From Planctomyces sp. (lineage in GTDB: Bacteria; Planctomycetota; Planctomycetia; Planctomycetales; Planctomycetaceae), in the NCBI GenBank assembly GCA_019636235.1, contig JAHBXW010000020.1, positions 1 through 64,000 on the forward strand: DNA of 64,000 bases, read 5' to 3'. How positions within the stretch are numbered: the first letter of the stretch is position 1; the number at the start of each line of letters is the position of its first letter. This document shows, one piece after another, positions 24,419 through 29,495 of this stretch. Both the position numbers and the translations under genes were made by a program. The notes beneath the pieces were generated by a model. That model was not told the DNA's origin, did not search any database, and saw only the letters and a program-made list of their open reading frames with translations.

Positions 24419-24774
24419 GGCGAGTCCGAGTGGGCAGGAGGGGTGGTGATGAGTCGGCGGACGCGGCGGAGAACTCCGAGCGCAAATGACCGCTGCAGCC
24501 TACCGAACCCGCTGCAGGGCCGATACGCAACCGGCCGCGCTCGCCGGCCGTCGCAGGGCGGGGATCTGCAGCGCGGTCGTGCGACGGACGGCTGGCGTTG
24601 AAGCGCGCGACGGGCGGACGAATTCATCCCGCTCGTTCATGCAAGACTGCCAACTACCTGTCACCGCCGTCGCTACGGTTTCGCTCGGGCAGGATGACTT
24701 TTTTTCTGCGGGCCGGGCAGGGAAGCGCGAGCTCCGGTCCGCAGTTTCGTCACAGCTCTTCAGAGGGCCGGAAG
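24419..24774. other. Divergent intergenic region (356 bp)
   Basis: The region lies between the Ldh-type gene (minus) and the small membrane protein gene (plus). There are open frames on both strands, but none has a start with a ribosome-binding site or recognisable product. A T7 run (24707-24713 area) is the only A/T-rich spot. No tRNA or strong hairpin is seen. Confidence 0.5.
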
Positions 24775-25305
24775 ATGCAACATGCCGAGATCGTCGGGCT
24801 GGTGGTCGCGTACACGCTGACGGGCGCGTTCGTGTTCACAGTCGTCGTCACCTGCATCGCGCTGCTCATTCCGAGCGTGATTCCCAGCCGGAACGTGCGG
24901 CGGGCGTTGATGGGCACGTTGATCCTCGAAGTCGCGGCAGGGGGCGTCGGCTACTACCTGGACTTCCTGAAATTCAATCCGAAGCAGGTGGCCCAGGACA
25001 TCGGCGGGCGCGCGGCCGCGAAAGCGCTCGTCGCCATCGAACCTCCGATTCCCGAACCGAACGAGGCCCAGCGCGACGTTGTCGCGCCGGCCGTGGAATA
25101 CGTCTCAGCATTCGAGTTTCCTCCGGGATCTCCGGCCTCCATCGACCAGCAGGCATTGCTGAAGCAACTCCGGCAAAGCGCGGGTGAAACGTCGCCTGAG
25201 AAGTCCAACGCAGTCTTCTGGACCAATCTCAACACCTTCCGTGACGCAGCCAGCGCCTACGCCGAGACAGGCAAGTGGCAGCGCCTGGAACTCCCCGCTC
25301 AGTAG
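24775..25305 (+). CDS. Membrane-anchored hypothetical protein upstream of CTQ operon
   Basis: 176-residue protein with two N-terminal membrane segments (about 6-30 VGLVVAYTLTGAFVFTVVVT and 45-65 LMGTLILEVAAGGVGYYL) and a ~115-residue polar domain expected outside the membrane. I do not recognise it. The ATG at 24775 is preferred over upstream in-frame starts because it opens the first membrane helix. It ends 77 bp before the LodA-like gene on the same strand and may belong to that operon. Confidence 0.65.
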   Translation: MQHAEIVGLVVAYTLTGAFVFTVVVTCIALLIPSVIPSRNVRRALMGTLILEVAAGGVGYYLDFLKFNPKQVAQDIGGRAAAKALVAIEPPIPEPNEAQRDVVAPAVEYVSAFEFPPGSPASIDQQALLKQLRQSAGETSPEKSNAVFWTNLNTFRDAASAYAETGKWQRLELPAQ

Positions 25306-25382: not shown

Positions 25383-26867
25383 ATGATCACCAAGTACCGG
25401 ATTCATCCCTCGATCGGCATCGCACGGATCGGCAACAGCGCGAACGACTGGTTCGACGGCCCCGACGTCCCCTCGCTGGCGTTCACGCCCCCCGGCGGCG
25501 CCTATCGCGATGCCTCCGGCCGCATCAAGCGCCAAGCCGCGAAGTTCCGAATCTATGAGTCGACCTACGACCCCACCGACCTGACGCACCCGGTCTCCGT
25601 CCGTGAAATCACCAGCGCGGACGCCGAGATCGAATGGCACGTTCAACTGGCGAACCTCAAATCCTTCGAGCGTGATCCCGCTGGAGGCGGAAACGTCCCG
25701 GTCCCCAACAGTCCGCCGACAGGCTCCGTTCGTCCGGGGGACATGCACGAGATTCAGGGCAGCGTGTTCGGCCACAATCTGCTGCTGGGCCGCCTGATGA
25801 CCGACGACGATGGACGGCTGCGCGTGCTGGGCGGGCTCGGCCGGTCGGAATCGCCAAGCGGCGAGCCGCTGGTCAGCCTGTTCAATCCCGGCTGGTACGA
25901 CGACGTCTCGGATGGACCGGTGCGGGCGACGATCCGGCTGCACGGCACGAATGATGTGCCGGTCGTTGAATCGGCCTGGGTCGTCGTGGGCGTCCCGGCG
26001 TACGCGCATCCGGTCGTCAGCATCGTGACGATGTGGGACCTGGCGTACGACATCGCCGTGCGTCACTTCGGACATCCGTTGCCGGTCCGCGTGTCGTTCA
26101 CGCGCGACATCTACCCGATTCTGCAGCGCACCGTGCTGATGCAATGGGCATCGGGTCTGGCGCGGGTGGGGCACGGTCCGGGCCGGAGGGGAGATTTTCT
26201 CGAACCTGCCCTGCTGGGTCTGTTGGCCAGCAATGACAGCGCTCCCGGTTCGCCGGCCCGCGCGGCCCGGGAGCGTGTTTTCGACAAGCTCCGGAATCCG
26301 CTGGGCGGGACGGGGGGCAACATGCCGCGCCTGCCCGGACCGCCTTCCCCCGTCACTCCGAATGCCGATGGCTTCACCGTCACCCAGGTCCAGTTCGACC
26401 TGATGCAGAGATGGAGGCAGGGGAGCTTCGATCCGGACTGGGCAGGCCCGCCGCCAGAGCCGGTGTTCAGCGCGTTGAGTCCGGCGGAGCAGACGGCGGC
26501 GCTGGACCACACCGGACTGTGGACGGGCGTCGGCGGGTCCTTCCTGCCGGGAATCGAAGTCAGCAGCGCGTTTGCCCAATGGACGACGTACGCGTCGCCG
26601 TTTCGCATTCAACCCACGTTGCCGGCGGGAACCTTGACGGCTGGGCTGTCCGTTCCCTGGCAGGCGGACTTCACGGCCTGCGGCAGCAATTATTGGCCGG
26701 GAGCGCGTCCGAACGAAGTGACGGACAACGGCACGGCCTTTCACCAATGGACGACGTACACCATGCCGCAGATGGTGGCTGACTGGTGGAAGCTGGGCTT
26801 TCTGGCGTGGCGGCCGCTGCAGTCCGGCGTCGCGGGCATTCTGGAGACGGAGAAAGTCGTTCCGTAG
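25383..26867 (+). CDS. LodA/GoxA-type CTQ-dependent oxidase, short form
   Basis: 494-residue protein of the LodA/GoxA family (L-lysine epsilon-oxidase, glycine oxidase), whose cofactor cysteine tryptophylquinone is built from a Cys and a Trp of the same chain. The N-terminus KYRIHPSIGIARIGNS is the family signature. Near the C-terminus, WQADFTAC gives Asp429 and Cys433, matching the Asp512/Cys516 pair I recall for LodA; the Trp partner is likely Trp468 or Trp469 in VADWWKLGF. The spacing (~35 residues) is shorter than the 65 of LodA, and the whole protein is about 230 residues shorter. No signal peptide is visible. Next comes a c-type cytochrome gene, then a LodB-like flavoprotein gene. Confidence 0.87.
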   Translation: MITKYRIHPSIGIARIGNSANDWFDGPDVPSLAFTPPGGAYRDASGRIKRQAAKFRIYESTYDPTDLTHPVSVREITSADAEIEWHVQLANLKSFERDPAGGGNVPVPNSPPTGSVRPGDMHEIQGSVFGHNLLLGRLMTDDDGRLRVLGGLGRSESPSGEPLVSLFNPGWYDDVSDGPVRATIRLHGTNDVPVVESAWVVVGVPAYAHPVVSIVTMWDLAYDIAVRHFGHPLPVRVSFTRDIYPILQRTVLMQWASGLARVGHGPGRRGDFLEPALLGLLASNDSAPGSPARAARERVFDKLRNPLGGTGGNMPRLPGPPSPVTPNADGFTVTQVQFDLMQRWRQGSFDPDWAGPPPEPVFSALSPAEQTAALDHTGLWTGVGGSFLPGIEVSSAFAQWTTYASPFRIQPTLPAGTLTAGLSVPWQADFTACGSNYWPGARPNEVTDNGTAFHQWTTYTMPQMVADWWKLGFLAWRPLQSGVAGILETEKVVP

Positions 26868-26929
26868 CGTCGGTTGGCGGCGCGTGATGCGTCTGGTGGA
26901 TTCAAGGGCCCCTTTCTGGAGAGACTCCC

Positions 26930-28327
26930 ATGCCGTGGAATCGATTGGCCTGCGGGCTGACCATGCTGGCCGCGTCGGCCGCAGCGCTGTCCGATGTCGC
27001 ACTGTCGCAAGTCCCGATCACTGGCCCGACGGTCACGGCCGAATTGCCGCCGGAGGTGCTCGATGGAGGCGGCCTGCCGCTGCCCGTGAGCGTGAGCGCG
27101 CTGCCGCTGGACTTCTTCGACGATTTCTCGTGGCGATCGTTCGTCGCGTTGAACTGGCCTGCGGCGGCTGGCGGACGGGGCGTCCCGGATCGAACGAAGC
27201 CGATCAGCGCCCCGGGCCCCCGGGTCTGGGAGACGTGGAAGGCCAGCTATGAGACGATCCTGCCGACCGGAGCGCCCCCGGGCCCCTGGGATTCCGTCGA
27301 CGGACCCACGCCGTGCGCCAGCATCCCTCCCAGCGGCAGCGGCCTCGTGCGCCTGTTCGGTTCGTATTCGCACTTTGGCGATCTGAATCAGGCGGGCTTC
27401 GGCGGCCTGTCTGGCCCGCTCGTCTGCCAGAACCGGACATATACGCGGTATGAGGTTCGGCTCAACCAGCCGCAGTACGAGCACATCGCCAACCAAAGGC
27501 TGTATCTGAGGTCGACTCTCCTCGGGCTGACCGCGCCCGAACGGTTCCCGGACGGATCGATCGTCGTCAAAGCGGCGTGGCGGGAATTCGGCGCGAATGA
27601 CGATCAGGAATTGCGCTCGCGGTTCTACACCGTGGACGCCGCCGTCCTCGATCCGCCGAGCGGCCGCTGCGAGCCGAAACAACTGGGACTGGTGGGGCTG
27701 CACATCGTCCACAAAACGCCGCTGCGCCCGCAGTGGGTTTGGTCGTCCTTCGAGCATGTCGACAACGTCCCGGAGTTCGGACAGCCCCCGATGCCAACGG
27801 ATCGGTTCTCGTACAACAGCTCCAAGGATCCGCAACTGACCGACTCGGAACCGCCGACGCTGACTCTGGCGACGTTCCAGGCGTCGCCGGAACCCAACCA
27901 AATCGTCCGCGAACTGCCGCTGCATCCGGCCGCTCCGAACAATATCGGCACGGAGGCGATGAACCGGCGCTACCAGGCGGCGCTTTCGGGAACCGTGTGG
28001 GCGAACTATCAGCTCGTGGTGACGCAGTGGCCGAGGCGAACGCACGATCCCGATGTGGTCCCGTCGGATGATATCCCCGGCGATCCCTTCCCGGCTGCGA
28101 CCGTTTCGATGACCAGCGTGGCGAACACCGCCATGGAGTCATACCTGCAGACGGACACATCCTGCATGGACTGCCACGATCTCGCTCGACAGAACAAGAC
28201 GGACTTCATCAATTTCCTGCATGTGCATGCATTCGATGACACGTTCGTGAAAGTGAAATCGCAGTTCGAATTGCAACTCCATGAGAAGAAGCTGAAGATT
28301 CATACCAAGCAACGGTCGAGGCGGTGA
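26930..28327 (+). CDS. Monohaem c-type cytochrome family protein in CTQ operon
   Basis: 465-residue exported protein with a signal peptide (core LTMLAASAAALSDVALS) and a single haem c motif CMDCH near residue 409-413. The N-terminal ~100 residues hold DFFDDFSWRSFVALNWPA, a motif I associate with a poorly characterised cytochrome family; the rest shows paired Trp/Tyr-rich segments (VWSSFEHVDNVPEFG, WANYQLVVTQWP). The start ATG at 26930 has GGAGAG upstream. It sits between the LodA-like and LodB-like genes with gaps of 62 and 46 bp, so it is probably part of the enzyme system, perhaps as electron acceptor. Its tail is unusually Lys-rich. Confidence 0.75.
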   Translation: MPWNRLACGLTMLAASAAALSDVALSQVPITGPTVTAELPPEVLDGGGLPLPVSVSALPLDFFDDFSWRSFVALNWPAAAGGRGVPDRTKPISAPGPRVWETWKASYETILPTGAPPGPWDSVDGPTPCASIPPSGSGLVRLFGSYSHFGDLNQAGFGGLSGPLVCQNRTYTRYEVRLNQPQYEHIANQRLYLRSTLLGLTAPERFPDGSIVVKAAWREFGANDDQELRSRFYTVDAAVLDPPSGRCEPKQLGLVGLHIVHKTPLRPQWVWSSFEHVDNVPEFGQPPMPTDRFSYNSSKDPQLTDSEPPTLTLATFQASPEPNQIVRELPLHPAAPNNIGTEAMNRRYQAALSGTVWANYQLVVTQWPRRTHDPDVVPSDDIPGDPFPAATVSMTSVANTAMESYLQTDTSCMDCHDLARQNKTDFINFLHVHAFDDTFVKVKSQFELQLHEKKLKIHTKQRSRR

Positions 28328-28373
28328 GCCGGGCCGGCCGGCATACGCTGGGTCGTTGCGGGAGGGCGGGCCC

Positions 28374-29495
28374 TTGAATGCGTTGCAGGACGTGATCGTG
28401 CTGGGCGGCGGACCGGCCGGAGCGGCCACGGCGGCGCGGCTCGCGATCACAGGAATTCGCGTGGCGCTCGTTGAGCGGCCCGGGCCTGCCAGCGTGCGGA
28501 TCGGGGAATCGTTGCCGCCGGCGGCCTGGGCGCGCGTCGTCGCGCTGGGCGCGGCGGCCAGGTTCCTGTCCGACCGGCATCTGGAAACGCCGGGGACCGT
28601 TGCCTGCTGGGAAACGGAGACCCCGGCCGCGCACGACTATCTCTACACGCCCCCGGGGCGTGGCTGGCATCTCGACCGCCGTCGGTTCGATCGGATGCTG
28701 CGGAAGACGGCGGTCGCCGCGGGGGCGCGGGTGATCCGCGCCCGGCCGCTGGATATTGAGTCCCGGTCAAACGGGTTCTGGACGCTGCGAGTCCGGGGAC
28801 GCGACGGCGCGATGGAACGCGTCTCCGGGAGGCTGGTCGTCGATGCCACGGGGCGCTCGAGCTGGTTCGCGCGCCGCCAGGGGATGCGGCGGTCGCGGCT
28901 TGACCGGCTCGTTGCGCTGGCTGGACTGGTCCCGACGCCAGCGACGGCCGACCCGCGGCTTCTCGTTGAAGCGGCGCCCTGGGGCTGGTCCTACTGTGTC
29001 CCGCAGCCGTCGGGGGGCCTGGCGGCCGTCTGCCTGATGGATGCCGATGATCCGTGGCGCGGATCGACGCTGGCATCCACTTGGCGATCGCGGATCGGTT
29101 CGACGCCGCATGTCGCGGCGCGGGCGGGAGAACTGGCCCCGACGTGCGTGCGATTGCTCTCCGCGGCGACAGAGCGGCTGATGCAGTTTGCGGGCCACGG
29201 GTGGCTGGCGGTCGGCGATGCGGCGTTTTCGCGCGATCCGCTGTCATCGGGGGGGATTGCCGGAGCGCTGGAGATGGCGTCGCTGGCGGCGGAGTCGATC
29301 GGGTCCTGGTTTCAGGGCAGTTGCCGCGCGGCGGCGGAATACGCCTCCGCGCTGGAAGACCAGTGGTCGCGCTATCTGGCGGAGCAGAGAGTTCAGTACG
29401 GTGCGGTGGATCGCTGGCCGACAGAACTGTTCTGGCTGCGCCGGCGCGGCGCCATGACGTCGAGGTCGCCGGCGCCGGCGAGCGACAGACGATGA
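28374..29495 (+). CDS. LodB-like FAD-dependent flavoprotein
   Basis: 373-residue flavoprotein of the tryptophan-halogenase/LodB type. The FAD motif GGGPAGAATAARL (11-23) is followed by SVRIGESLPPAAW, the flavin-halogenase/LodB-type GES motif, and by VGDAAFSRDPLSSGGIAGAL near residue 285. LodB-type enzymes are required to build the tryptophylquinone in their LodA partner by oxidising the Trp. I place the start at the TTG at 28374, behind a GGGAGGGCGGG tract; the neighbouring ATG at 28378 is out of frame. A halogenase role is unlikely because the WxWxIP motif of tryptophan halogenases is not seen and the gene lies in the CTQ operon. Confidence 0.83.
   Translation: MNALQDVIVLGGGPAGAATAARLAITGIRVALVERPGPASVRIGESLPPAAWARVVALGAAARFLSDRHLETPGTVACWETETPAAHDYLYTPPGRGWHLDRRRFDRMLRKTAVAAGARVIRARPLDIESRSNGFWTLRVRGRDGAMERVSGRLVVDATGRSSWFARRQGMRRSRLDRLVALAGLVPTPATADPRLLVEAAPWGWSYCVPQPSGGLAAVCLMDADDPWRGSTLASTWRSRIGSTPHVAARAGELAPTCVRLLSAATERLMQFAGHGWLAVGDAAFSRDPLSSGGIAGALEMASLAAESIGSWFQGSCRAAAEYASALEDQWSRYLAEQRVQYGAVDRWPTELFWLRRRGAMTSRSPAPASDRR

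Follow-up and report, generated by a model that had tools for sequence, protein, structure and literature searches.

A LodA-type CTQ enzyme encoded with a P460-like haem c protein in Planctomyces: a candidate quinone-to-haem redox unit

The question raised by this locus is whether a LodA-type CTQ enzyme can deliver its electrons to a dedicated haem protein. The characterised LodA/GoxA enzymes are treated as oxidases in the literature searched. In quinohaemoprotein amine dehydrogenase (QHNDH), which is matured by QhpD and QhpG, the CTQ passes electrons to haem. The window, the whole 64,000-nucleotide stretch of Planctomyces sp. DNA that was analysed (contig JAHBXW010000020.1, positions 1 to 64,000), carries a LodA-like gene, a gene with a CxxCH motif and a lodB-like gene. 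As the initial annotation had described, the three lie in one direction on the + strand, separated by 62 and then 46 bp. The features are as follows.

25383..26867, + strand: LodA/GoxA-family CTQ enzyme, a short form of 494 aa; predicted CTQ residues Cys433 and Trp438, conserved Asp429
26667..26702, + strand: CTQ motif DFTACGSNYWPG, residues 429-440 of the LodA-like protein
26930..28327, + strand: exported mono-haem c protein of an unnamed P460/c'-beta-like family, 465 aa
27569..27571, + strand: codon of the invariant Lys214 of the haem protein, P460 haem cross-link position by profile alignment to Lys78 of 6hiu
27701..27703, + strand: codon of the invariant His258 of the haem protein, P460 distal carboxylate position by a gap-free motif match made by eye
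28163..28177, + strand: CMDCH haem-attachment motif, residues 412-416 of the haem protein
28374..29495, + strand: LodB/GoxB-like flavoprotein, predicted CTQ maturase, 373 aa, TTG start, FAD motif GGGPAG

Shine-Dalgarno-like GGAG/GGAGG sequences precede both the haem gene and the lodB-like gene. No clear site of this kind was seen upstream of the lodA-like gene, and no terminator-like site was found on the + strand within the three-gene unit. The unit may begin with a further, unannotated ORF of 235 aa (24598-25305, TTG start), which has a likely membrane segment and stops 77 bp before the lodA-like gene.

The identification of the first gene as LodA/GoxA-like is borne out by Pfam. Both LodA_N (4.1e-46, 158.1 bits against a cut-off of 26.3) and LodA_C (5.2e-18, 65.6 bits against 25) are above threshold. 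The protein misses the NCBIfam equivalog cut-offs (GoxA, 204.9 of 750 bits; LodA, 126.7 of 600 bits), and the QHNDH gamma-subunit model QH_gamma does not reach its own (15 bits against 50). Residues D429, C433 and W438 are invariant across the aligned LodA-family proteins (n=12), the Asp-Cys spacing is the same as in PlGoxA around Asp678 (PMC7876137), and the CTQ Cys and Trp are kept in every LodA-like protein studied (PMC4417212). Judged by this conservation and spacing, the CTQ site is intact. The Cys and Trp are separated by a spacing of 5, compared with 65 in LodA (Cys516, Trp581). The corresponding spacing in QHNDH is close to 5.

The LodA-like protein ranks among the shortest of its family, with a LodA_N match that starts at residue 8. 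No export signal was recognised in it, as judged by hydropathy only, whereas the N-terminus of the haem protein is hydrophobic and bears a signal peptide. This difference disfavours a simple direct contact between the two. Similar to known LodA/GoxA systems with LodB/GoxB, the window protein has the LodA_N and LodA_C domains, the CTQ Cys and Trp with the Asp, and an adjoining LodB-like flavoprotein. It differs in being much shorter, in its Cys-Trp spacing and in having a haem gene placed between its own gene and lodB. The third gene had been read as LodB-like, in agreement with its best NCBIfam matches (GoxB 2.1e-58, LodB 1.5e-53, QhpG 5.5e-46), all of which are below equivalog cut-offs. From this homology, the flavoprotein would build the CTQ in the LodA-like enzyme.

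The middle gene had been taken to encode a c-type cytochrome with one haem. The single CMDCH motif upholds the haem c, but the protein is not an ordinary c-type cytochrome, as its nearest relatives are P460/c'-beta proteins and it has no class I match. Class I cytochrome c was rejected since the Pfam cytochrome c domain is absent at E up to 1, and a QHNDH-type dihaem subunit was rejected on the single CxxCH and the lack of an NCBIfam match. The haem protein alone has no match above cut-off in Pfam, NCBIfam or the PDB sequences; PF16694 scores 16.8 bits against a cut-off of 27.

A family of such haem proteins was assembled from genomes and plasmids, with members of about 430-690 aa. Invariant among 19 members are F71, K214, H258, E275, Y360, N399, E403 and the Cys, Cys and His of CxxCH. 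All members read contain the CxxCH save one that is truncated at a contig end. Sub-threshold PF16694 matches occur in five of the 19, and a family scan gave a Cytochrome_C7 match in one (0.036). When the family profile was compared with the PDB, the best matches, although weak (E 0.2-0.3), were cytochromes P460, with K214 aligned to the residue of 6hiu that forms the haem cross-link, Lys78 (PMC11928373, Table 2). By this alignment, K214 occupies the cross-link position of cytochrome P460. In the P460 of Nitrosomonas sp. AL212 (NsP460), the position that distinguishes the A131E mutant from the wild type lies in the motif GI(A/E)AMVKD. The family sequence GLHIVHK can be fitted by eye to GIAAMVKD gap-free, which places H258 at residue 131 of NsP460. 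On this visual match, the invariant H258 would replace the distal carboxylate of P460.

AlphaFold models were made of the window haem protein (model 1, mean pLDDT 61) and of a Pseudomonas member (model 2, mean pLDDT 70). With model 1, the top five Foldseek matches are all P460/c'-beta (E 0.12-0.25), and in VIA these proteins fill the top 17 rows (Z 4.8-6.6; next fold 3.9). With model 2, they fill the top 16 VIA rows (Z 4.3-5.5; next 3.1), and P460 is absent among the top 50 Foldseek matches. Profile-profile comparison with P460 gave 70% over 15 columns at the Lys motif and 55% at the CxxCH end, and about 2% for the isolated core. As these matches are short and local, the assignment rests on motifs and fold and not on profile statistics. 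Shared ancestry with P460/c'-beta is probable, not proven. Common to both are the C-terminal CxxCH and the fpdG..vK motif, in which a Lys occupies the cross-link position; P460/c'-beta structures also lead the VIA fold matches of both models. The haem protein is about three times longer, has an invariant His in place of the distal carboxylate and falls below the Pfam cut-off. Unlike the genes of P460/c'-beta, those of the haem family are encoded with oxidoreductases.

The pairing of LodA-type proteins with the haem family is recurrent, beyond chance. In Acidisphaera sp. S103, a haem-family gene immediately precedes lodA-lodB. Together with the window, this gives two of about 31 LodA loci in which the family directly adjoins LodA. 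On a plasmid of Bradyrhizobium barranii, a member lies 3.4 kb from a LodA that is split into two ORFs, and a split-LodA cluster of Mesorhizobium sp. AR10 includes a true PF16694 P460 gene. Co-occurrence by genome is strong in an alphaproteobacterial sample, where LodA is present in six of the ten genomes that carry the haem family (Fisher p about 4e-7, or about 8e-5 once three near-identical genomes are collapsed, some of the genomes being close relatives); these p-values are approximate because the two genome draws were unequal in size (289 and 385).

The trio is not conserved in relatives of the host. This possibility was rejected since, of 392 genomes sampled from the phylum, three have LodA, one of them being the host, and the other two have no haem-family gene beside it. 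A sampled genome of the same genus holds neither gene, and no LodA was found in 195 genomes of the Verrucomicrobia, home of the closest haem relatives. This distribution would suggest a horizontal origin. Another genome of the phylum (locus L050, 3186-14494) has a lodA-lodB-lodA run closely preceded by the gene of a 1551-aa protein that combines a VWA domain with five CxxCH motifs.

The haem family is also found beside enzymes of other types. In Pseudomonas, it adjoins a GMC flavoenzyme with a FAD-SLDH-like small subunit; in Pseudomonas putida (locus L015, 5932-10071), the P460-like haem gene, the small subunit and the flavoenzyme lie in a row, and the haem gene has close relatives in eight more Pseudomonas genomes. 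In Azospirillum, the neighbours are a GMC gene and a gene annotated as 'sorbitol dehydrogenase', and in Acidisphaera the family is also found beside a GMC-like flavoenzyme. The Methylobacterium member lies beside an XDH/aldehyde-oxidase-like molybdoenzyme and the Paracoccus member near a tyrosinase, with several other settings elsewhere. The Pseudomonas genes hold the place of the cytochrome subunit of GMC dehydrogenases; they differ in having a single P460-like haem where that subunit is a three-haem cytochrome c. A family of hypothetical proteins turns up repeatedly next to haem-family and LodA-type genes (L032, 6050-7783; L088, 6623-8401; L028, 29931-31049; L050, 2-1621); Pfam scans of three members gave no match.

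The split-LodA loci may be compared with QHNDH. On the B. barranii plasmid (NZ_CP088279.1; locus L028, 22729-28049), a LodA N-part and a small CTQ-bearing C-part are followed by a QhpD-like radical SAM protein (TIGR03906 5e-95, below cut-off) and one QhpG-like flavoprotein, which passes the QhpG cut-off. The cluster has the appearance of an intermediate form between LodA and QHNDH. Clusters of a split LodA, a QhpD-like radical SAM protein and a QhpG-like flavoprotein recur on plasmids of Rhizobium, Bradyrhizobium, Mycetohabitans, Mesorhizobium and Novosphingobium (L166, L167, L168, L169, L170 and L173). The small C-part carries the motif PWxxD[FY]xxCxCYYWA, ferritin-like genes are annotated beside several of the clusters, and the haem gene is missing from most of the split-LodA loci examined. 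These clusters appear to combine the maturation routes of LodA and QhpG, which are contrasted in PMC7876137, the sole paper in the literature searched with both terms.

The initial annotation had likened the window unit to QHNDH. The likeness holds for a CTQ enzyme paired with haem c, which is recurrent, for the short D-x3-C-x4-W motif resembling that of QhpC and for the below-cut-off match of the flavoprotein to QhpG. It does not extend to the dihaem alpha subunit, as the window protein has one CxxCH and one P460-like haem, nor to the small gamma subunit, since the CTQ here is in a full LodA protein.

The reading favoured here, at a probability of roughly 0.4, is that of a CTQ redox unit in which a dedicated haem c protein of the P460 superfamily accepts the electrons of the reduced quinone. 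The LodA-like enzyme would oxidise an amine or amino acid, and transfer of electrons from its reduced CTQ to the exported haem c protein would make it at least partly a dehydrogenase. His258 may serve as a second haem ligand or as a proton-relay residue over the haem. The transfer from quinone to cytochrome that the initial annotation had proposed is thereby partly supported, although for a haem protein of another kind. An acceptor role is plausible in view of the other partners of the haem family, among them GMC flavoenzymes and a molybdoenzyme. These flavoenzymes and the molybdoenzyme normally need an electron acceptor, and in FAD glucose dehydrogenase the electrons go to a cytochrome c subunit (PMC5979317). 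Also in favour are the Acidisphaera gene order, the B. barranii member near a split LodA with QhpD/QhpG-like enzymes, the Cys-Trp spacing far below that of LodA and a c-type cytochrome assembly gene in the host genome. Against it stand the export signal present on the haem protein and not recognised on the LodA-like protein, the peroxide yielded by known LodA/GoxA enzymes, and the haem gene missing from most LodA loci as well as most split ones. Furthermore, the characterised P460/c'-beta proteins bind ligands or catalyse reactions and do not act in simple electron transfer.

The same facts can be read with LodA as an oxygen-using oxidase and the P460-like protein as a peroxidase or peroxygenase that handles its peroxide, a strong rival judged somewhat less likely than the acceptor reading. 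LodA/GoxA enzymes release peroxide and, as this diffuses across the membrane, no protein contact would be needed, in agreement with the compartment difference. Catalase-like domains are fused to some LodA-like proteins, peroxidase-like activity occurs in NeCP-beta of the same superfamily, and an invariant His on the distal side would be in keeping with peroxide chemistry. However, the cross-link Lys of NeP460 suppresses peroxidase activity. Its removal created that activity, so the Lys retained in the haem family argues somewhat against a peroxidase. Moreover, GMC enzymes that have an FAD-SLDH-like small subunit would be expected to act as dehydrogenases and not as oxidases. The acceptor reading fits the other partners of the family better; a peroxide partner fits the compartment difference better.

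A role downstream of LodA, on its product or on a nitrogen compound in hydroxylamine-like or secondary-metabolite chemistry, is rather unlikely. Some cytochromes P460 oxidise hydroxylamine, and related loci hold PF12902 ferritin-like genes, a tyrosinase, a multicopper oxidase and the recurrent hypothetical genes. The distal carboxylate of the hydroxylamine-oxidising P460s is a His here, however, and none of these extra genes was recognised beside the unit in the window ORF list. It is unlikely that lodA, the haem gene and lodB are neighbours with no direct biochemical coupling. The rarity of immediate adjacency and the lack of both genes in the same-genus genome would agree with this, but the haem family stands independently beside lodA in Acidisphaera and near the split LodA of B. 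barranii, and co-occurs with LodA at the genome level. There is very little chance that the haem protein helps to build the CTQ, as the dihaem MauG does for TTQ. MauG shows that a haem protein can act as a maturase, and the haem gene lies between lodA and lodB; yet LodB alone serves in most LodA loci, with no haem neighbour, only the haem protein bears a signal peptide, and its family also accompanies enzymes without CTQ.

No paper linking LodA to a P460-type haem was found in the literature searched, and the word 'cytochrome' is absent from a 2015 survey of LodA loci. If the acceptor reading is true, a dedicated haem partner connects LodA-type enzymes to the quinohaemoprotein dehydrogenases, and the switching of CTQ between oxygen and haem as acceptor becomes testable. 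A tentative and rather speculative extension is that P460-superfamily haem proteins with a distal-side His form a new general class of acceptor, serving LodA-type CTQ enzymes as well as GMC and molybdenum dehydrogenases, with the window enzyme as a LodA-type CTQ dehydrogenase. The fold of cytochrome P460 appears to have been reused by an unnamed and widespread haem family whose genes accompany those of many oxidoreductases. On Gloeothece plasmids (loci L033 and L035), its members adjoin TOMM precursor-binding and amidohydrolase genes, with a SagB-type dehydrogenase in L035, suggesting their use in peptide natural-product loci.
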